Source of the DNA: Salinimicrobium sediminis
Lineage (GTDB): Bacteria; Bacteroidota; Bacteroidia; Flavobacteriales; Flavobacteriaceae
Reading direction: 5' to 3'
Assembly (NCBI RefSeq): GCF_900215295.1
Contig: NZ_OCMF01000005.1
Coordinates: 1-64,000, forward strand
DNA length: 64,000 nt
Shown here: positions 4,529-12,449 of the stretch, piece by piece
How the letters are laid out: each line of letters opens with the position of its first letter
Numbering within the stretch: the stretch's first letter is position 1
The notes under the pieces: generated by a model
Told to the model about the DNA's origin: nothing
Seen by the model: only the letters and a program-made list of their open reading frames with translations
Database searches by the model: none
Position numbers and translations under genes: made by a program

Positions 4529-4709
4529 CTTAATCAGGTGAAATTTGCTGTTGTCTAACTTCAAATTTGAAAATTAAACTTAGCTTTCCTCCCTCTTTTC
4601 ATCTATTAAATTTCTTATATTTAATTCTTTTCCAGTTTTTTGAGTATTAAGACTTTAAAAAAAGTTGAGCAATATTAGTTTGAAATTAACTTTTTTCAAA
4701 ACTTTTATT

Positions 4710-4737
4710 GTTTAAGTTTGTATAAATTATTTTAAAC
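4710..4737 (+). promoter_or_regulatory. Promoter and possible operator of the carotenoid operon
   Basis: TAAGTTTG at 4713-4720 matches the Bacteroidota -7 consensus TAnnTTTG and is 19 bases before the GTG start. It is embedded in an inverted repeat GTTTAA (4710-4715) / TTAAAC (4732-4737). Overlap of the inverted repeat with the -7 box would suit repression by the MerR/CarH-type regulator encoded immediately downstream. No convincing -33 TTG was found at normal spacing. Confidence 0.45.
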
Positions 4738-4738
4738 A

Positions 4739-5635
4739 GTGGATAACTTTACTATAAGTCAGCTTTCCCAGTTTTCAGGGATCAAACCTCATACTATTCG
4801 TATATGGGAGCAGCGATATCATGCTCTTACTCCACATCGTTCTAAGGGGAATACCCGTTACTACGATGGAACCCAGTTGCGAAGGCTTCTAAATATCGTT
4901 AGTCTTTCGGGAACGGGAGTAAAACTTTCCCGTCTTGGAGCTATGAGTGACGAGGAACTTTTCCAAATGATAAGGGAGCATAGTGAAAGCGCTGCTGAAA
5001 ATAAGGATTATGCCTATTTCGTAAATCAATTGATCTCTGCCGGGATGAACTTTGACGAGTTCAACTTCGAAAAGATATTTTCTCACTGTCTGCTAAGATT
5101 TGGGATGTTAAAAACTTACGTTGAAGTAATTCACCCGTTGCTTAGCAGAATTGGCCTAATGTGGTCTGCAGACGAGATTCCCCCCGCACATGAACATTAT
5201 ATTTCCAATCTCTTAAGACAAAAGATCTCTACCGCTATTGATTCACATCCCGTAGAAAAAGCAGAAAAAGAAACCTGGCTGCTCTTTCTGCCCGAAGATG
5301 AATTTCACGAGTTAGGCTTGTTGTTCTCCAATTACTATTTGAGAAGTAAAGGAAAGAAAGTGATCTACCTTGGAGCGAATGTTCCACTTAGTTCTGTAGA
5401 ACGAACTCTGGAAGAAGTCGATGTTCAGTACTTGCTTGTCTTTATGGTAAGAAATGATCTGCCGGAGAATATCAAAAATTATCTCGATGAACTTGCAGCT
5501 GTGGTGGGTAAGAGAAAAGTACTTGTCACAGGTGGGGCAATTAATGCTGCAGGCCCAATAGAAAATAAATCCATTCTTCAAATAACTTCTGTAGAAGATC
5601 TTGACGGGGAGTTGGAACAAACTTATACAGGTTGA
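4739..5635 (+). CDS. MerR-family regulator with CarH-type cobalamin photoreceptor domain
   Basis: 298 residues from a GTG start. Residues 3-70 are a MerR winged helix (TISQLSQFSGIKPHTIRIWE). The C-terminal half has a cobalamin-binding fold: a helical cap with W142-x9-E152-H153 and a Rossmann-like part with E188-x-H190-x-x-G193. These match the W-x9-EH and ExHxxG signatures of CarH/CarA/LitR, where the Trp and Glu-His shape the adenosylcobalamin pocket and the later His is the lower cobalt ligand. In known CarH the dark tetramer represses and light breaks it up. It heads the carotenoid operon, 1 base before crtI, so it probably represses its own operon in the dark. Photosensing is inferred; DNA-binding is near certain. 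Confidence 0.88.
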   Translation: MDNFTISQLSQFSGIKPHTIRIWEQRYHALTPHRSKGNTRYYDGTQLRRLLNIVSLSGTGVKLSRLGAMSDEELFQMIREHSESAAENKDYAYFVNQLISAGMNFDEFNFEKIFSHCLLRFGMLKTYVEVIHPLLSRIGLMWSADEIPPAHEHYISNLLRQKISTAIDSHPVEKAEKETWLLFLPEDEFHELGLLFSNYYLRSKGKKVIYLGANVPLSSVERTLEEVDVQYLLVFMVRNDLPENIKNYLDELAAVVGKRKVLVTGGAINAAGPIENKSILQITSVEDLDGELEQTYTG

Positions 5636-5636
5636 T

Positions 5637-7133
5637 ATGTCTAAGATAGCAGTTATAGGAGCAGGCTTTTCGGGCTTAAGTGCAGCAGCATATTTAGGGG
5701 CTGCGGGTCACGAGGTGCATGTTTTTGAAAAGAACAGTACTGCCGGTGGCCGTGCCAGGCAACTACATACCCAGGAGGGTTATACTTTTGATATGGGCCC
5801 TAGCTGGTACTGGATGCCCGATGTTTTCGAGAAATTTTTCGGAGACTTTGGCTTCAATGTTTCTGACCTTTACCAACTTGACCTTTTGGACCCCTCTTTT
5901 GAAGTTGTTTTCCCCCGAAATGAAAAAATGAGTATCCCTGAAAATTACGGGGAACTCCGGAAGCTTTTTGAAGAGACCGAATCCGGAAGTGCTGCAAAGC
6001 TTGATAAGTTCATGGAAGAGGCACAGTATAAATATGAGCAGGGGATGGAAAGGCTGGTATATATGCCGGGAATTTCTATCGGGGAATTTATGGACATTGA
6101 TCTTATCAAAGGTGCATTAAGGCTGCAGGTCTTTTCATCTTTCAGCAAGCATGTACGAAAATATTTTTCCAATCCTAAGTTGATCTCACTTATGGAGTTT
6201 CCGGTCCTGTTTTTAGGCGCCATGCCGCAGGATACTCCGGCGCTGTATAGCCTGATGAATTATGCCGGACTAAAACTCGGCACCTGGTATCCCCAGGGCG
6301 GCTTTGGTAGTGTGATCACTGCTATGGTTAACGTGGCAAAAAAGCAGGGAGTGAGCCTGCATTATGACGCTCCGGTGCAGGAGATCTTAACTTCAGGCAA
6401 ATCAATAAGGGGAATAAAAGTGTATAACGAAGAGATTTCCTTTGATGCCGTTGTTGCTGCGGCAGATTATCAACATGTGGAGGAGAAATTGCTTCCGCAG
6501 GAATTCAGGAATTACGGTGGGAAATTTTGGGAGAAAAAGACATTTGCACCCTCCAGTCTCATATATTACCTGGGAATTTCAGAAAGGATTCCCGAGCTGG
6601 AACACCATACTTTGTTCTTTGATGAAGACCTGTTCGATCATTCCGTAGAAATTTATAAGAAACCTCAATGGCCAAAGAAACCCCTGTTCTACGTTTGCTG
6701 CCCGTCCAGTACAGATGCTTCTGTAGCGCCTGCAGGTCATGAAAATCTTTTTTTACTCATGCCTTTGGCACCGGGACTAAAAGATGAAGAAGCAACCCGG
6801 GAGAAGTTTTTCAAGATCATGATCAAACGTTTGGAAAAACAAATTGGTAGAAGTATTTCTCACAAAATCGACTATAAAAAGAGCTATTGTGTGTCTGATT
6901 TTATTTCAGATTACAACTCCTATAAAGGCAACGCTTACGGGCTTGCCAATACCCTGCAGCAAACTGCGATCCTCAAACCGAGTATAAGAAATAGGAAGCT
7001 GAAGAACCTTTTTTACGCGGGACAACTCACTGTTCCGGGGCCGGGGGTGCCGCCTTCCTTGATTTCAGGAAAAATTGCAGCCGAGCAGGTTTTAAAAGAA
7101 CTTAAAAAGAAAAAATATGAAGTCACTGTTTGA
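5637..7133 (+). CDS. crtI: Phytoene desaturase CrtI
   Basis: 498 residues starting at the ATG 1 base after the regulator's stop; an upstream in-frame start (5601) would lie inside the regulator gene and add a non-conserved leader. N-terminal FAD site IAVIGAGFSG (residues 4-13) and C-terminal bacterial-type signature LFYAGQLTVPGPGVPPSL are both present, and length is normal for CrtI. It carries out stepwise dehydrogenation of 15-cis-phytoene to all-trans-lycopene at the inner membrane, using FAD. It overlaps crtB by 17 bases, indicating translational coupling. Confidence 0.95.
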   Translation: MSKIAVIGAGFSGLSAAAYLGAAGHEVHVFEKNSTAGGRARQLHTQEGYTFDMGPSWYWMPDVFEKFFGDFGFNVSDLYQLDLLDPSFEVVFPRNEKMSIPENYGELRKLFEETESGSAAKLDKFMEEAQYKYEQGMERLVYMPGISIGEFMDIDLIKGALRLQVFSSFSKHVRKYFSNPKLISLMEFPVLFLGAMPQDTPALYSLMNYAGLKLGTWYPQGGFGSVITAMVNVAKKQGVSLHYDAPVQEILTSGKSIRGIKVYNEEISFDAVVAAADYQHVEEKLLPQEFRNYGGKFWEKKTFAPSSLIYYLGISERIPELEHHTLFFDEDLFDHSVEIYKKPQWPKKPLFYVCCPSSTDASVAPAGHENLFLLMPLAPGLKDEEATREKFFKIMIKRLEKQIGRSISHKIDYKKSYCVSDFISDYNSYKGNAYGLANTLQQTAILKPSIRNRKLKNLFYAGQLTVPGPGVPPSLISGKIAAEQVLKELKKKKYEVTV

Positions 7134-7953
7134 TAATTTATCGGTGAAGGTGAGTAAGCTTACCACCCAATCCTACAGCACCAGTTTTTCCCTTGGGATA
7201 TATTTTCTACATGACCGGCTGCGGGATCCAATCTATTCGGTTTATGGGTTTGTTAGAGTGGCCGATGAGATCGTGGATAGTTTCGAGGGTTATGATCAGG
7301 AGTACCTGCTCAGGAAATTTAGGGAAGATACCTATGAAGCTTTAGATCAAAAGATCTCTGCGAATCCTATTCTCAATTCCTTCCAACAGGTGGTGCATGA
7401 ATATGAGATCGACCGGGAGCTTATAGATACTTTTTTGGCGAGTATGGAAATGGACCTTCAAAAAGTGGATTATAATGACGAAAAATATCAGCAGTATATT
7501 CTGGGTTCTGCAGAAGTGGTAGGCCTAATGTGCCTGCACATCTTTACTGAAGGAGACAAACAACAGTTTGAGGAGTTGAAACCTTACGCGATGAAACTTG
7601 GTGCAGCCTTTCAAAAAGTGAATTTTTTAAGGGATCTAAAAGATGATTACCATGTATTGGGGAGAACATATTTTCCCGGCGTGGACATGGAATATTTCTC
7701 ACAGGAAGCAAAATTGCAGATAGAACAGGAGATCGAAGAAGATTTCAGGATTGCCCTTGAAGGAATTAAAATGCTGCCTGCGTCTTCAAAAGGCGGTGTA
7801 TATTTGGCATATGTTTATTATCAATCCCTGTTCAAGAAGATCAAGAGACTTCCTGCCACAAGAATTTTATCGGGCAGAATAAGGATCAACAACGGCCGAA
7901 AAGTGGGATTGATGATCAACAGTCTGGTAGAATGTAAAATGAGAATGGTTTGA
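7117..7953 (+). CDS. crtB: Phytoene synthase CrtB
   Basis: 278 residues. Squalene/phytoene synthase fold with both Asp-rich Mg-diphosphate motifs: D50-EIV-D54 within VRVADEIVD and D173-LKD-D177 within NFLRDLKDDY. It condenses two geranylgeranyl diphosphates head-to-head into phytoene, the first committed carotenoid step. Its start lies inside the end of crtI, and its stop TGA shares a base with the next ATG, so it is mid-operon. No geranylgeranyl diphosphate synthase (crtE) is in the window; the substrate must come from elsewhere in the genome. Confidence 0.95.
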   Translation: MKSLFDNLSVKVSKLTTQSYSTSFSLGIYFLHDRLRDPIYSVYGFVRVADEIVDSFEGYDQEYLLRKFREDTYEALDQKISANPILNSFQQVVHEYEIDRELIDTFLASMEMDLQKVDYNDEKYQQYILGSAEVVGLMCLHIFTEGDKQQFEELKPYAMKLGAAFQKVNFLRDLKDDYHVLGRTYFPGVDMEYFSQEAKLQIEQEIEEDFRIALEGIKMLPASSKGGVYLAYVYYQSLFKKIKRLPATRILSGRIRINNGRKVGLMINSLVECKMRMV

Positions 7954-8444
7954 TGAAGTTTATTTTGACCGTGGTTTTTATCATGATGGCAGGTTTTTCT
8001 CAACATCCGGAAATTTCAGAAGTGAGGAGCCTCTATAAAGAAGCCGCCGAAGAAGAGAAAGCAGCAGAAAAACTTCTTAAGGTGACTGCTGCATTAAAGG
8101 ATAAAGAGCCACTAATGCATGGATATTATGGGGTGGCGCAGATGATGATGGCTAAACATGTGGGCAATCCTTTTAAAAAGCTTTCTTATTTCAATAAAGG
8201 TAAAGATTACTTTTCTGAAGCCATTGAGGCCGATCCCAAAAATGTAGAGCTAAGATTTCTGAGGTTCACAGTACAGGCAGAGACGCCCGGATTTTTGAAC
8301 TATAAGCAAAATCTCGGCGAGGATAAAAGAATCCTGCTCTCCCGAACCTCTGTTCTTAAAGACGAAGAGCTTCGGCAAATGATCCTGGCTTACCTTTTAT
8401 CTTCAAAGGAGCTAAGCGCTTCCGAAAAGAAAAATCTTAAATAA
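7953..8444 (+). CDS. Unknown exported helical protein in the carotenoid operon
   Basis: 163 residues; ATG at 7953 overlaps the crtB stop as ATGA. A signal peptide (about 1-17, MKFILTVVFIMMAGFSQ) precedes an all-helical body resembling a single TPR-like region (YFSEAIEADPKNVELRFLRF, about 88-107). I do not recognise a named family. Its position between crtB and crtZ with overlap on one side and a 43-base gap on the other makes it part of the operon. An accessory role in carotenoid assembly, membrane insertion or export is possible but unproven. Confidence 0.8.
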   Translation: MKFILTVVFIMMAGFSQHPEISEVRSLYKEAAEEEKAAEKLLKVTAALKDKEPLMHGYYGVAQMMMAKHVGNPFKKLSYFNKGKDYFSEAIEADPKNVELRFLRFTVQAETPGFLNYKQNLGEDKRILLSRTSVLKDEELRQMILAYLLSSKELSASEKKNLK

Positions 8445-8487
8445 TTAATTGCTTTTCAGTAAATTAGAGGAGAGTAAAAATAAGACT

Positions 8488-8955
8488 ATGGAAACAATAG
8501 CATTAAATTTTTTTATTGTACTCGCGGCTTTCCTTGCCATGGAAGGTGTCGCGTGGTTTACTCATAAATACATTATGCATGGGCTGCTGTGGACGTTGCA
8601 TAAAGACCACCATAAAAAGGAATCTTCGGGCTTCTTTGAACACAATGATTTTTTCTTTTTGATCTTTGCGATCCCCGGCATCATCTCCCTGTATTTCGGG
8701 GTGGAAGCAGGCTATAATTACCTTTTTTGGATAGGTTTTGGAATTACCCTTTATGGAACCGCCTATTTCTTCGTTCATGATATTTTCATTCATCAGCGGT
8801 TCAAGGTACTCCGTAAGATCGATAATTCTTATTTTAAGGCCATTAGGCGGGCACATAAAATGCACCACAAGCATATCAATAAAGAGGACGGGGAATGCTT
8901 CGGAATGCTGTGGGTCCCCATGAAATATTTCCAGGAACAACGTAAAAGAGCCTGA
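8488..8955 (+). CDS. crtZ: Beta-carotene hydroxylase CrtZ
   Basis: 155 residues from ATG at 8488; the open frame extends to 8449, but METIALNFF is the conserved N-terminus. It is a four-helix integral membrane non-haem di-iron hydroxylase with the full histidine set: H26/H31, H38-xx-H41-H42, H97/H102 and H123/H126/H127. It adds 3-hydroxyls to the beta rings of beta-carotene, giving cryptoxanthin then zeaxanthin. The stop TGA overlaps the crtY ATG by one base. Confidence 0.93.
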   Translation: METIALNFFIVLAAFLAMEGVAWFTHKYIMHGLLWTLHKDHHKKESSGFFEHNDFFFLIFAIPGIISLYFGVEAGYNYLFWIGFGITLYGTAYFFVHDIFIHQRFKVLRKIDNSYFKAIRRAHKMHHKHINKEDGECFGMLWVPMKYFQEQRKRA

Positions 8956-9677
8956 TGCAATACACGTACCTGCTGGTTAATTTTTTTACGATCATCATTC
9001 CGTTTTTATTTTCATTTCATCCTAAACTGAAGTTTCATAAAACCTGGAGTGCCTTCTTTCCTGCGGTTTTTATTGCGGGATTCATTTTTGTGGTGTGGGA
9101 TATGTATTTCACACACCTGGGGGTTTGGGGCTTCAATGAAAGATATCTCACAGGAGTAGAGATCGGAAACCTGCCCATGGAAGAAGTATTGTTCTTCTTC
9201 TGTATTCCCTATGCCTGCGTGTTCACCTTTCATTGCCTTAACCTTTTCATGCCCGAGGTGGGGAATCCAAAAACGCAAAAAATCATCACCCTTACTTTAG
9301 TAGCCTTTTTGCTGATCCTAGGTTTGCTGAATTTCAACAGAAGCTATACTGCGGCTACTTTTATCAGCTTTTCCCTGGTGCTGCTTTTTGCTGAATTTAT
9401 CCTGAAGATCAACTGGCTCTCCCGATTTTATGTGGTGTATGCCGTGCTCCTGATTCCTTTCTTTTTTGTGAATGGCGTCCTTACCGGAAGTTGGATCGAA
9501 GAGGAGGTGGTGTGGTATAATGCTGCGGAATTTATGAACTTTAGGATAGGGACCATTCCTGTGGAAGATGCATTTTACGGAGCTATGCTGATCCTGCTGA
9601 ACCTCTTGATCTACCGGTATCTTCTTAACCGGAAAACAATGTCGCAGAAGATCACCCGAAAAGCCCATGCCTTATGA
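8955..9677 (+). CDS. crtY: Lycopene beta-cyclase, fused CrtYc-CrtYd type
   Basis: 240 residues, six to seven membrane helices and two homologous halves. Each half has the family's acidic signature: P74-MEE in GNLPMEEVLFF and P202-VED in GTIPVEDAFYG, with VWDMYFTHLGVWGFNERY ahead of the first. This is the CarR/CrtYcd-type membrane cyclase, unrelated to the soluble FAD-dependent CrtY of Pantoea. It cyclises both lycopene ends to beta-carotene. Overlaps neighbours by 1 base (crtZ) and 4 bases (next gene). The symbol crtY (or crtYcd) is by function. Confidence 0.92.
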   Translation: MQYTYLLVNFFTIIIPFLFSFHPKLKFHKTWSAFFPAVFIAGFIFVVWDMYFTHLGVWGFNERYLTGVEIGNLPMEEVLFFFCIPYACVFTFHCLNLFMPEVGNPKTQKIITLTLVAFLLILGLLNFNRSYTAATFISFSLVLLFAEFILKINWLSRFYVVYAVLLIPFFFVNGVLTGSWIEEEVVWYNAAEFMNFRIGTIPVEDAFYGAMLILLNLLIYRYLLNRKTMSQKITRKAHAL

Positions 9678-10441
9678 AAAAGTCATTACAGATACTGAAC
9701 CTCGTCGCATTTATCCTGGTAGTAATTTTCAATTATTTTTCTAATACCGGTGCCATCAATGGCGAAACCATGGGATCTGTTTCGGCCGATTATCAGAATC
9801 TTTTTACGCCCGCAGGGTATGCATTTTCTATATGGGGTTTGATCTATTTTGCGCTTGCCGCCTTTGTAATATTCCAAATCGGAAACTCCAGGGGCAGGGA
9901 AGAAGCCTCTAAAATAGGATGGTGGTTTGTGATTTCCTGTGCGCTTAATATTGCATGGATCTTTGCCTGGTTGAATCACTTTGTAGGTCTTTCGGTGTTG
10001 ATCATGGTGTTGCTGCTGTTTTCTTTGATCATGATTGTATTTAAAACAAGAATGGAATTGGATGATGCGCCACTTTCGATCATTGCTTTTGTGTGGTGGC
10101 CGTTCTCATTCTATTCCGGTTGGATCACTGTGGCTCTTATTGCGAATATTGCTGCCTGGTTGACATCTTTGGGTTGGGATGGCTTTGGGATTTCTGAAGT
10201 TATCTGGACTCTTCTTATGATTGGGGCTGCCCTGGCTATAAACCTGATCATTACCTGGACACGGAATATGAGGGAATTTGCTCTCGTGGGAGCATGGGGT
10301 TTGGTGGCTGTTGGAATAGCTAATAAAGGGGAGCATGAAGTGATATTTTTAACCGCCGTAATCGCCGCGGCAATCCTTGTGATAAGCAGCGGAGTACATG
10401 GGTTCAAAAACAGAGAAACTTCCCCATGGAAGCAGCTTTAG
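9674..10441 (+). CDS. TspO/MBR-like tryptophan-rich membrane protein
   Basis: 255 residues with about eight hydrophobic helices and many Trp residues. FTPAGYAFSIWGLIYF (about 45-60) resembles the P-x-W loop of TspO/MBR proteins, which bind porphyrins and influence photooxidative responses and, in Rhodobacter, carotenoid gene expression. It is longer than classical five-helix TspO (about 155 residues), so this is a related, extended branch. The ATGA overlap with crtY and 16-base overlap with the photolyase gene place it inside the operon. Role in light or tetrapyrrole sensing is inferred from the family and context. Confidence 0.75.
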   Translation: MKKSLQILNLVAFILVVIFNYFSNTGAINGETMGSVSADYQNLFTPAGYAFSIWGLIYFALAAFVIFQIGNSRGREEASKIGWWFVISCALNIAWIFAWLNHFVGLSVLIMVLLLFSLIMIVFKTRMELDDAPLSIIAFVWWPFSFYSGWITVALIANIAAWLTSLGWDGFGISEVIWTLLMIGAALAINLIITWTRNMREFALVGAWGLVAVGIANKGEHEVIFLTAVIAAAILVISSGVHGFKNRETSPWKQL

Positions 10442-11736
10442 AGACAGGAATCGCGGTATGCTGGCTGCGCAGGGATCTTCGCCTTGATGATAATAGTGCG
10501 CTGTACCATGCCCTCAAAAGCGGCCGACAGGTTTTATTATTATTCATTTTTGATCCTGAAATCTTAGAAACTCTTCCCGATAAAAGTGACCGCAGGGTTG
10601 CCTTTATTCACAGACAGCTGCAAAAGATCAATGAGAAAATCAGCCAGTATGGTTCTTCGTTGTTAGTACTGCATGAGTTGCCAAAAGAAGCATTTTTGAA
10701 GCTGCTTTCCAATTATGCTGTAAAAGATGTTTTCACGAACCACGATTATGAACCCTATGCCCGAAAAAGAGATAAGGAAGTAGCCGATGTTTTAGCTGAA
10801 AACGGAGTGAAATTTCACACATATAAAGATCAGGTGATCTTTGAGAAGAATGAGGTGATGAAGCCCGATGGATCTCCTTACACTGTTTTCACTCCCTATT
10901 CCCGGGTATGGAAAAACCGGCTACACAGTGAGGGAGTTCCAGGTTTTCCTTCGGAAGAGCATATGGAACACCTGCTTAAAATGCAAAAAAGAAACCTGCC
11001 TTCCCTGGAAGAGATGGGATTTCAATCTGTAGAAGATCATGTTCCTGAAGCCGATCTTTCTGAAGCGCTCATCCGGAACTATTCCGAAACCCGGAACTTA
11101 CCTGCCATTAGCGGCACCAGTATGGTGGGAGTCCATCTGCGCTTCGGAACCATAAGCGTGAGGCAGCTGGTGAAAAAGGCGCTAAAATGGAGCGAGGTAT
11201 GGCTGAATGAATTGATCTGGAGGGAATTTTTTATGATGATCCTGTGGCATTTTCCGCAGGTGGAGCATCAAAACTTCCGCAGCAAATATGACAGGATCCC
11301 GTGGCGGAATAATGAGCGGGAATTTGAGTTGTGGACAAAAGGAGAAACCGGGTATCCGCTGGTGGATGCAGGAATGCGCCAGCTAGACGAGACCGGCTGG
11401 ATGCACAACAGAGTTCGAATGCTGGTTGCCGGATTCCTCTGCAAGCATCTGCTTATCGATTGGCGCTGGGGAGAAGCTTACTTCGCCGAAAAGCTCCTGG
11501 ACTACGAACTGGCCTCCAACAACGGAAACTGGCAATGGGCCGCCGGAACCGGCTGTGATGCCACGCCTTATTTCCGAATTTTTAATCCCGATACGCAGCT
11601 AAAGAAATTCGATCCAAAACTTGAATATGTGAAGACCTGGATCCCCGATTTTAGAGCTGGATATCTTGATCCTATTGTGGATCACCAATTTGCCAGAGCG
11701 AGGGCTTTGGAAACCTATAAGAAAGCGCTGAATTAA
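10426..11736 (+). CDS. phr: Deoxyribodipyrimidine photolyase (cryptochrome/photolyase family)
   Basis: 436 residues. N-terminal alpha/beta antenna domain (WLRRDLRLDDNSAL, 13-26) and C-terminal FAD domain with LNELIWREFF, GYPLVDAGMRQL, MHNRVRM and the flavin-site stretch LASNNGNWQWAAGTGCDA. Motifs agree with class I CPD photolyases, which use blue light and FADH- to split pyrimidine dimers. It is the last gene of the light operon and overlaps the TspO-like gene. Co-transcription with carotenoid genes under a light-sensor is consistent with a photoprotection regulon. A (6-4) or DASH assignment is less likely given the motifs. Confidence 0.93.
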   Translation: MEAALETGIAVCWLRRDLRLDDNSALYHALKSGRQVLLLFIFDPEILETLPDKSDRRVAFIHRQLQKINEKISQYGSSLLVLHELPKEAFLKLLSNYAVKDVFTNHDYEPYARKRDKEVADVLAENGVKFHTYKDQVIFEKNEVMKPDGSPYTVFTPYSRVWKNRLHSEGVPGFPSEEHMEHLLKMQKRNLPSLEEMGFQSVEDHVPEADLSEALIRNYSETRNLPAISGTSMVGVHLRFGTISVRQLVKKALKWSEVWLNELIWREFFMMILWHFPQVEHQNFRSKYDRIPWRNNEREFELWTKGETGYPLVDAGMRQLDETGWMHNRVRMLVAGFLCKHLLIDWRWGEAYFAEKLLDYELASNNGNWQWAAGTGCDATPYFRIFNPDTQLKKFDPKLEYVKTWIPDFRAGYLDPIVDHQFARARALETYKKALN

Positions 11737-11742
11737 AAAAAT

Positions 11743-11861
11743 CCAAGCACCAAGCACCAAGCACCAAGCACCAAGCACCAAGCACCAAGCACCAAATTCC
11801 AAATTCCAAATTCCAAATTCCAAATTCCAAATTCCAAATTCCAAATTCCAAATTCCAAATT
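11743..11861. repeat. Two adjoining heptanucleotide arrays: 7 x CCAAGCA then 10 x CCAAATT
   Basis: Seven exact CCAAGCA units (11743-11791) pass without a phase change into ten exact CCAAATT units (11792-11861). Both words share CCAA at the same position and the same period. The array begins 7 bases after the photolyase stop codon. No spacer separates the units. The open frame of 88 codons on the - strand here (11599-11865) is an artefact of the repeat, because 7-base units read all three frames in turn. Confidence 0.95.
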
Positions 11862-11910
11862 TCAATTTTTTTTAAATGGGAATCCAGGTCCTCTCTTCGG
11901 TTGTTCGAAA

Positions 11911-12449
11911 AATGTCATCCTGAGCTCCCGACGCAGGAGCGAATGGTCGAAGGGCATTTATGTTGTGAGTTTACTTTTGTAACAAACCCGATTTTGACCA
12001 AATTTTCAGACCTATCGTTAGTGAAAATTGCTCAACCTGACAATATTGAAAAAGTCTTGTCTCTTGATTCTTGCCTCTTGATTCTCCAAAAATGTCACCC
12101 TGAGCTCGCGACGGAGGAGCGATGGTCGAAGGGTCTTCATGTTCTGATGCTTAATCCTTCAAAAAAAAGGGTTTCGACCAAATTTTCATACCTATCGGTA
12201 TCGAAAATTGCTCAACCTGACAATATTGAAAAGGTCTTGTCTCTTAATTCTTGCCTCTTGGTTCAAAAGAATTTCACCCTGAGCTCGCGACGGAGGGGCG
12301 ACGGTCGAAAGGTCTTCATGTTCTGATGCTTAATCCTTCAATAAAAAGGGTTTCGACCAAATTTTCATGCCTATCGGCTTCGAAATTGCTCAACTTGACA
12401 ATATTGAAAAAGTCTTGTCTCCTGATTCTTGCCTCTTGGATCTAACAAA
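11911..12449. repeat. Triplicated ~180-bp intergenic repeat
   Basis: Three head-to-tail units start at 11911, 12091 and 12270 (AATGTCA/AATTTCA...CCTGAGCTC). Each has the GAGCTC..GCGAC..GGAG..GGTCGAAGG element, a hairpin around AATTTTC...GAAAATT (in unit 2 about 12181-12208), then GCTCAACCTGACAATATTGAAAA and a closing heptad run (CTTGTCT CTTGATT CTTGCCT CTTGATT at 12056-12083 in unit 1). The short + strand open frames here are repeat-derived and not genes. The region separates the light operon from the convergent DUF58 gene. Confidence 0.88.

Follow-up and report, generated by a model that had tools for sequence, protein, structure and literature searches.

A CarH-like regulator heads a carotenoid operon in Salinimicrobium sediminis and may govern a light-protection regulon in Flavobacteriaceae

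The window, i.e., the whole stretch of 64,000 nucleotides of the Salinimicrobium sediminis genome that was analysed (contig NZ_OCMF01000005.1, positions 1 to 64,000), contains a carH-like gene at 4739–5635 on the forward strand (GTG start, 298 amino acids; start codons were assigned by rule) and, on the same strand, a run of carotenoid and photolyase genes. The first structural gene encodes a crtI-type phytoene desaturase (5637–7133, ATG start; NCBIfam CrtID, 704 bits with a cut-off of 640), followed by genes for a crtB-type phytoene synthase (7117–7953; SQS_PSY), a 164-amino-acid protein (7950–8444), a crtZ-like hydroxylase (8449–8955; FA_hydroxylase), a lycopene cyclase (8955–9677; Lycopene_cyc and CarR_dom_SF), a TspO/MBR-like membrane protein (9674–10441) and a DNA photolyase (10426–11736). 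These Pfam and NCBIfam matches agree with the initial annotation, which had implied carotenoid and photolyase genes downstream of a light-sensing regulator. The 164-amino-acid ORF had no family match in the Pfam or NCBIfam scans, and the TspO/MBR-like protein scored 19.3 bits, under the cut-off of 24; both are conserved in the operon within the genus, as the order of all eight genes is the same in S. nanhaiense (the nearest named relative found, with a 93% identical regulator) and two congeners. Behind the photolyase gene, a repeat-rich region (11760–12440) has 24 more partial matches (E up to 1e-3) across the genome, and thus probably represents an interspersed repeat rather than a gene.

The carH-like gene is single-copy in its genome, and both the ORF call and the domain matches indicate that the MerR protein originally proposed at this position is real. 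Profile, PDB and fold matches suggest a MerR winged helix (approximately residues 1–70) and a four-helix plus Rossmann cobalamin-binding domain (approximately residues 88–298). MerR_1 (PF13411) scored 49.5 bits (E = 5e-13, cut-off 21.6), indicating that the N-terminal MerR winged-helix domain is present, and B12-binding_2 (PF02607) scored 27.7 bits, above its cut-off of 23; PF02310 scored 20.6 bits, under its cut-off of 32.1. The best NCBIfam model was TransRegCarH with 79.6 bits, which does not reach the CarH equivalog cut-off of 400. The five matches in a PDB sequence search were all to Thermus CarH/LitR (best 3whp, E = 9e-15), though some carry the label "probable transcriptional regulator" and were taken as T. 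thermophilus CarH (TtCarH) from the structure-search results. An AlphaFold2 model built from seven sequences (mean pLDDT 79.6) had TtCarH as its top Foldseek match (E = 1e-14), and comparison of its cobalamin domain with the TtCarH domain 9s06_D (VIA Z 21.2, rmsd 2.9 over 195 residues) indicated a CarH-like fold.

The sensor type itself is already known. The regulator is about 23–25% identical to CarH/LitR of T. thermophilus (PDB 5C8D, 5C8E, 5C8F and 3WHP) and shares with it the domain order, the Wx9EH motif, the lower axial His, GxxxP and the TnnACA half-site, and there, as here, carotenoid and photolyase genes are nearby. The adenosyl cap motif W142-x9-E152-H153 (codons at 5162–5197, forward strand) and the lower axial His motif E188-x-H190-x2-G193 (codons at 5300–5317, forward strand) are present exactly as described in the initial annotation, and the distance between the two His residues is 37, compared with 35 in TtCarH as read from its DNA. 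In an alignment of seven rows, W142, E152, H153, H190 and G193 were invariant, and E188 was replaced by Gln in one row.

We profiled these positions in 97 homologues, comprising the window, six loci of named genomes, one plasmid locus and the 89 best-scoring other genomes, which are not a random sample because the best-scoring rows were chosen. In TtCarH numbering, W131 and E141 were found in all 97, H142 in 93, the Glu of ExH in 96, the axial His (H177) in 96 and the Gly of HxxG in 92; the complete patterns Wx9EH and ExHxxG were detected in 93 and 91, respectively. Other features of TtCarH were not retained. Both H132, the bis-His residue beside the Trp, and D201 of the salt-bridge pair were kept in none of the 97, and Arg is outside the eight commonest residues in the R176 column; the window regulator likewise has no His beside the Trp and no Arg-Asp pair. 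The serine of SxV/T (Ser222) is Phe in the window and Ser in eight of the 97, so this element is absent here. One column earlier, 65 homologues have Ser and 23 have Thr, which may provide a shifted SxV/T equivalent in those proteins, but not in the window, where the residue is Val. The GG that ends the classic B12 motif is one column off in the window; across the homologues the second Gly is kept in 94 of 97, and the first is mostly Leu or Ser. Taken together, the light-sensing core (W131, E141, H142 and H177) is kept and several TtCarH features are absent.

The missing bis-His residue has a parallel in the cobalamin domain of CtMerR from Chloracidobacterium (PDB 8JBS and 8JBT), which also combines a MerR protein with a light-responsive cobalamin domain. 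According to the consulted part of PMC11796333, CtMerR has Arg at the H132 position and changes from tetramer to monomer in light, whereas the H132A variant of TtCarH does not monomerise; the contrast suggests that lack of this residue neither excludes nor proves function. The Gly of the CtMerR GxxH element is Asp in the window and Gly in nine of the 97 homologues.

Regulator homologues (E up to 1e-10) were detected in 241 of 299 sampled Flavobacteriaceae genomes, including that of S. sediminis, and in 86 of 374 genomes of the phylum sample. The window regulator resembles those of other families (L253, L254 and L255; 51–54% identity) more than the type common among the rows listed from its own family (33–41%), and transfer between families is possible judging from these identities. 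In three homologues from the family (L108, L119 and L129) the His of Wx9EH is replaced (EQ, ES and ER) and the axial His is kept, and these loci are natural tests of B12 dependence.

The genome encodes several functions related to the supply and use of B12. It has one cobalamin riboswitch, located at a gene for a BtuB-like receptor (TonB-B12 model, under the cut-off), with adjoining ABC importer genes of which one is a weak BtuF match, and it encodes a PduO-type adenosyltransferase, MetH, two methylmalonyl-CoA mutases and an IcmF-like mutase. A search of the genome for CbiC gave no match. As the genes for import and PduO are present and CbiC was not found, the Salinimicrobium host probably imports B12 and makes adenosylcobalamin (AdoCbl) itself. 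Across the family, PduO-type adenosyltransferases were found in 276 of 299 genomes, and CbiC, used as a single marker gene, in 12, with no match in 287. PduO was found in 236 of the 241 regulator-bearing genomes vs 40 of the 58 without the regulator, a comparison uncorrected for phylogeny and completeness. At three loci (L083, L272 and L274, from genomes G048, G008 and G280), the regulator motifs and the 30-bp site described below are intact and PduO was not found.

The residue losses could also be read as a sign that the protein represses without B12, as do Myxococcus CarA and class II LitR; the cobalamin domain would then be a structural relic and light would act via an antirepressor or a separate photoreceptor. 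The loss of the SxV/T serine, the His beside the Trp and the Arg-Asp pair is in line with this, as are the four of 97 homologues without the Wx9EH His (one of them the plasmid locus from outside the family, L044, which has lost the axial His as well) and the five regulator-bearing genomes without a PduO match, four of which were fetched and all keep the motifs. We consider this explanation unlikely, since the loss that marks CarA is that of the Trp of Wx9EH (PMC9304148, in the excerpts consulted), and here the Trp and Glu are universal among the homologues and the axial His nearly so, and since the gene associates with the adenosyltransferase, with the above reservations on that comparison.

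A predicted operator, the 30-bp inverted repeat TGTTTAA-N16-TTAAACA (4709–4738), ends at the start codon of the carH-like gene, and no second such site occurs in the window. Inside it, at 4713–4720 on the forward strand, is a −7 promoter box, TAAGTTTG, that matches the consensus TAnnTTTG. The relaxed form TGTYYA-N18-TRRACA was detected in 77 of 97 homologous upstream regions (250 bp plus 12 nt of coding sequence each) and an N19 form in 11, with either in 84; the maximum count at any spacing was 2 in 50 shuffles, which were first-order Markov resamplings that ignore phylogeny. The remaining 13 regions had no paired site, and such sites were missing in 15 of 19 loci from other families. The promoter box is at the same offset as in the window in 8 of the 84 regions with a paired site and at offset −6 in 52. 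The inner spacer of the repeat is A/T-rich without conserved sequence, and in the subgroup with most members the start codon region (ATGAACA) itself forms the 3′ half-site, with biased codon usage there (Asn2 is AAC in 55 of 58, Asn3 is AAT in 44 of 50).

The half-site TnnACA is that published for CarH (PMC8156234 and PMC9304148, in the parts consulted), and its arrangement differs from that of TtCarH, whose operator consists of three 11-bp direct repeats. TnnACA half-sites at an inverted distance of 24 bp were detected in 81 of 97 regions (shuffle maximum at any distance, 14), and several site loci are dispersed in the genome. By contrast, 11-bp direct repeats of TnnACA were found in 5 of 97 regions (shuffles averaged 2.6 and reached at most 7), and a tandem nnnnTnnACAn operator was rejected as this spacing is not enriched; in the TtCarH intergenic region, used as a positive case, three TnnACA at 11-bp steps were recovered as published. 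In the excerpts of PMC9304148, on Cystobacter CarH and Myxococcus CarA, a CarH dimer and varied operator designs are described, with inverted repeats noted at the CarA operator; those CarH operators have tandem and degenerate TnnACA direct repeats, unlike the fixed 30-bp inverted pair here. Given the lack of the SxV/T serine and of a direct-repeat operator, and the NCBIfam score under the cut-off, we refer to the protein as CarH-like.

The type of half-site follows the recognition helix of the regulator. Upstream regions of proteins with an RIWE helix (n = 81) had on average 1.30 AAC-type and 0.06 GAC-type half-sites, and those of proteins with RKWE (n = 14) had 0.57 and 3.14, so that sequence counts pair RIWE with AAC-type and RKWE with GAC-type half-sites. 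A direct distance of 52 bp with TRRACA was also enriched (10 of 97 regions, 9 of the 10 being RKWE-type loci). RKWE-type regions (L011, L013, L103, L124 and others) often contain a second GAC-type paired site, with half-sites spaced by 52 bp, and on account of this doubling and spacing the RKWE subgroup may use a double operator.

In the genomes of the family, exact matches to the strict site TGTTTAA-N16-TTAAACA numbered 857 in 299 genomes, compared with 36 for the reversed control. Strict sites were present in 225 of 241 regulator-bearing genomes vs 10 of 58 without the regulator, every one of these 10 being at most 94% complete; among genomes at least 95% complete, the counts were 199 of 214 vs 0 of 17 (Fisher test, P = 2e-17, phylogeny uncorrected). 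The strict site was missing in 16 regulator-bearing genomes, of which the nine fetched were all of the RKWE type. Six genera include a pair of genomes that differ in presence of the regulator. In three of these pairs, both members of which are at least 98% complete, no site was found where the regulator is absent, and the congener had 2, 5 or 4, showing that regulator and sites were lost together; each of the other three has one less complete member, and two are opposite in direction and one is siteless throughout. One of four Pedobacter genomes had no strict site, and the Pedobacter sites away from the carH-like gene (L153 and L154 within genes, L155 between two convergent ones) were judged to be chance matches.

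These patterns bear on whether a different transcription factor acts on the 30-bp repeat and has the carH-like gene among its targets. Such a factor would account for the presence of the site before many operons, and binding by the CarH-like regulator is deduced from sequence. It is very improbable, as the half-site type tracks the recognition helix of the CarH-like protein, the sites track the presence of its gene including the three within-genus losses, and the half-site TnnACA is that of CarH.

Control by the CarH-like regulator is predicted to extend beyond the carotenoid operon. The initial annotation had named this operon as the target; the likely target set includes several operons, and control of the carotenoid operon alone was rejected because the genome has four other strict N16 sites. 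Besides the one before the regulator, there is a site between htpG and TetR-AarF and one at each of three fasciclin loci, whose divergent neighbours are an SRPBCC gene, a MORN-repeat gene and an efflux operon. Three of the six fasciclin genes in the genome have a site, with an estimated chance of 3e-7 assuming 3200 genes and nine flanking genes. A sixth match (C8:1158361, N18) is within a long palindrome that looked terminator-like by eye and was set aside. The two congeners have 3 and 2 strict sites, compared with 5 here, and S. nanhaiense has a single one, at the regulator; one congener retains the htpG/TetR and double-fasciclin sites, and the other has an identical 30-mer before a fasciclin gene.

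More generally, strict sites in family genomes precede crt genes, photolyase islands, fasciclin lipoproteins and TetR-AarF genes. We inspected 62 further sites in 60 stretches of 16 genomes, taken from the first-listed genomes and excluding carH-promoter sites and the listed sites of G254, G260 and G130; two of the 62 were intragenic. Their flanks, named from one Pfam/NCBIfam representative per cluster, included genes for fasciclins (n = 16, one gene with two sites counted twice), TetR (n = 12), a 142-aa family (n = 9), mnmA (n = 8, one twice), GLPGLI (n = 6), crtI (n = 3), htpG (n = 3), DUF2452 (n = 3) and SDR-DUF2867 (n = 2), with another 16 in pairs or singletons, plus SRPBCC, MORN-repeat, CrtW-like and mevalonate-kinase-like genes. 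Members of the 142–149 aa family (e.g., L205:2073-2501, L211:2020-2469 and L243:2059-2487) are located beside photolyases, DUF2805 or FolE in the stretches inspected, and the two members scanned had no Pfam or NCBIfam match. AstaP-like binding of carotenoids by the fasciclins is speculative; a FAS1 homologue from a cyanobacterium failed to bind carotenoids (PMC10147662, in the excerpts consulted), and a fasciclin protein is involved in Azospirillum photooxidative stress under RpoE-ChrR, as cited in the excerpts of PMC10949492.

The main offsets of the TAnnTTTG box relative to the site are −6, +4, +15 and +35, spaced by approximately one or two helical turns. The box was at +15 for crtI (3 of 3), GLPGLI (5 of 6) and fasciclin (7 of 16) and at +35 for the 142-aa family (9 of 9). 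For TetR, a consensus box at −6 or +35 was seen in 5 of 12 orientations (3 of 12 at +35 and 2 of 12 at −6, one in both), no htpG orientation had one at −6 or +35 (0 of 3), and a consensus box was not detected on the divergent mnmA side (0 of 8). At the +15 promoters the −7 box is inside the repeat, somewhat like at classical MerR activators, and the regulator could accordingly be an activator, whose light or B12 state switches on a bound promoter. This is improbable in our view: at the three other offsets the site overlaps the box, lies upstream of it or follows it closely, positions that fit occlusion, and characterised CarH proteins are repressors.

In the consulted parts of PMC8156234 and PMC9304148, these CarH proteins bind their operators in the dark as AdoCbl-bound oligomers and are released after photolysis. 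By the same logic, a site that spans the promoter should give dark repression, relief by light and constitutive expression without B12. We infer AdoCbl binding, direct binding of the regulator to the site, repression, photolysis and the light response on this basis, and put the probability that the protein is a CarH-like, AdoCbl-dependent photoreceptor and repressor, shutting off its own operon and the four other site loci in the dark and releasing them in light, at approximately 0.82. AdoCbl would be formed from imported B12 by the PduO-type adenosyltransferase, and in the dark the AdoCbl-bound regulator would assemble on the 30-bp inverted repeat, over the −7 box and up to its own start codon, with shut-off of carH-crt-tspO-like-phr, the three fasciclin loci and htpG/TetR-AarF. 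Blue or green light would then break the Co-C bond and open the assembly so that the genes are transcribed, and without B12 they would be on in the dark too. The original proposal of a CarH-type B12 light sensor is therefore supported, in that sequence, modelled fold, conservation, B12 genes and the promoter-overlapping operator all fit, with the amendment that the protein represents a divergent branch without the SxV/T serine, the His beside the Trp and the Arg-Asp pair, and with an inverted pair as operator.

Among the matches listed from the open-licence PMC literature, no paper described a CarH operator or regulon in Bacteroidetes/Bacteroidota, the 30-bp inverted-pair site, its promoter phasing or a multi-operon regulon in Flavobacteriaceae, or light/dark expression data for carriers of the carH-like gene. 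The protein was absent from all eight genomes of the order's other family among the matches listed for the phylum sample, a family that perhaps holds Chryseobacterium. Light-induced pigment in a Chryseobacterium of the same order is said to occur without car or lit genes (PMC7064467, in the excerpts consulted); a link to this species, Chryseobacterium lacus, was weighed and set aside given its authors' report. In the consulted part of the paper on the crt cluster of Nonlabens spongiae, the leading gene is described no further than as a regulator of the MerR (or MarR) family.

The best reading of the site and regulator distributions is a light-protection regulon across much of Flavobacteriaceae under a CarH-like repressor. 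We tentatively suggest, as a possibility still short of even odds, that most Flavobacteriaceae have a distinct CarH class, which would bind symmetrically to a 30-bp inverted repeat, adopt its light state without a bis-His switch, and have an altered nucleotide-tail pocket that maybe accepts other cobamides. It would act as a global photoprotection switch for carotenoids, photolyases, fasciclins, TetR-AarF and isoprenoid supply, and the light response would depend on a vitamin from neighbours, since most of these genomes lack the corrin-ring gene. The different operator geometry may be of use for understanding the plasticity of the CarH family and for green-light gene control, and the predicted target list bears on what fasciclin lipoproteins and the 142-aa family do under light stress. 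If true, a vitamin that most sampled genomes seem unable to make de novo would gate pigmentation and photorepair across a large heterotrophic family, and light tolerance would be tied to cross-feeding.
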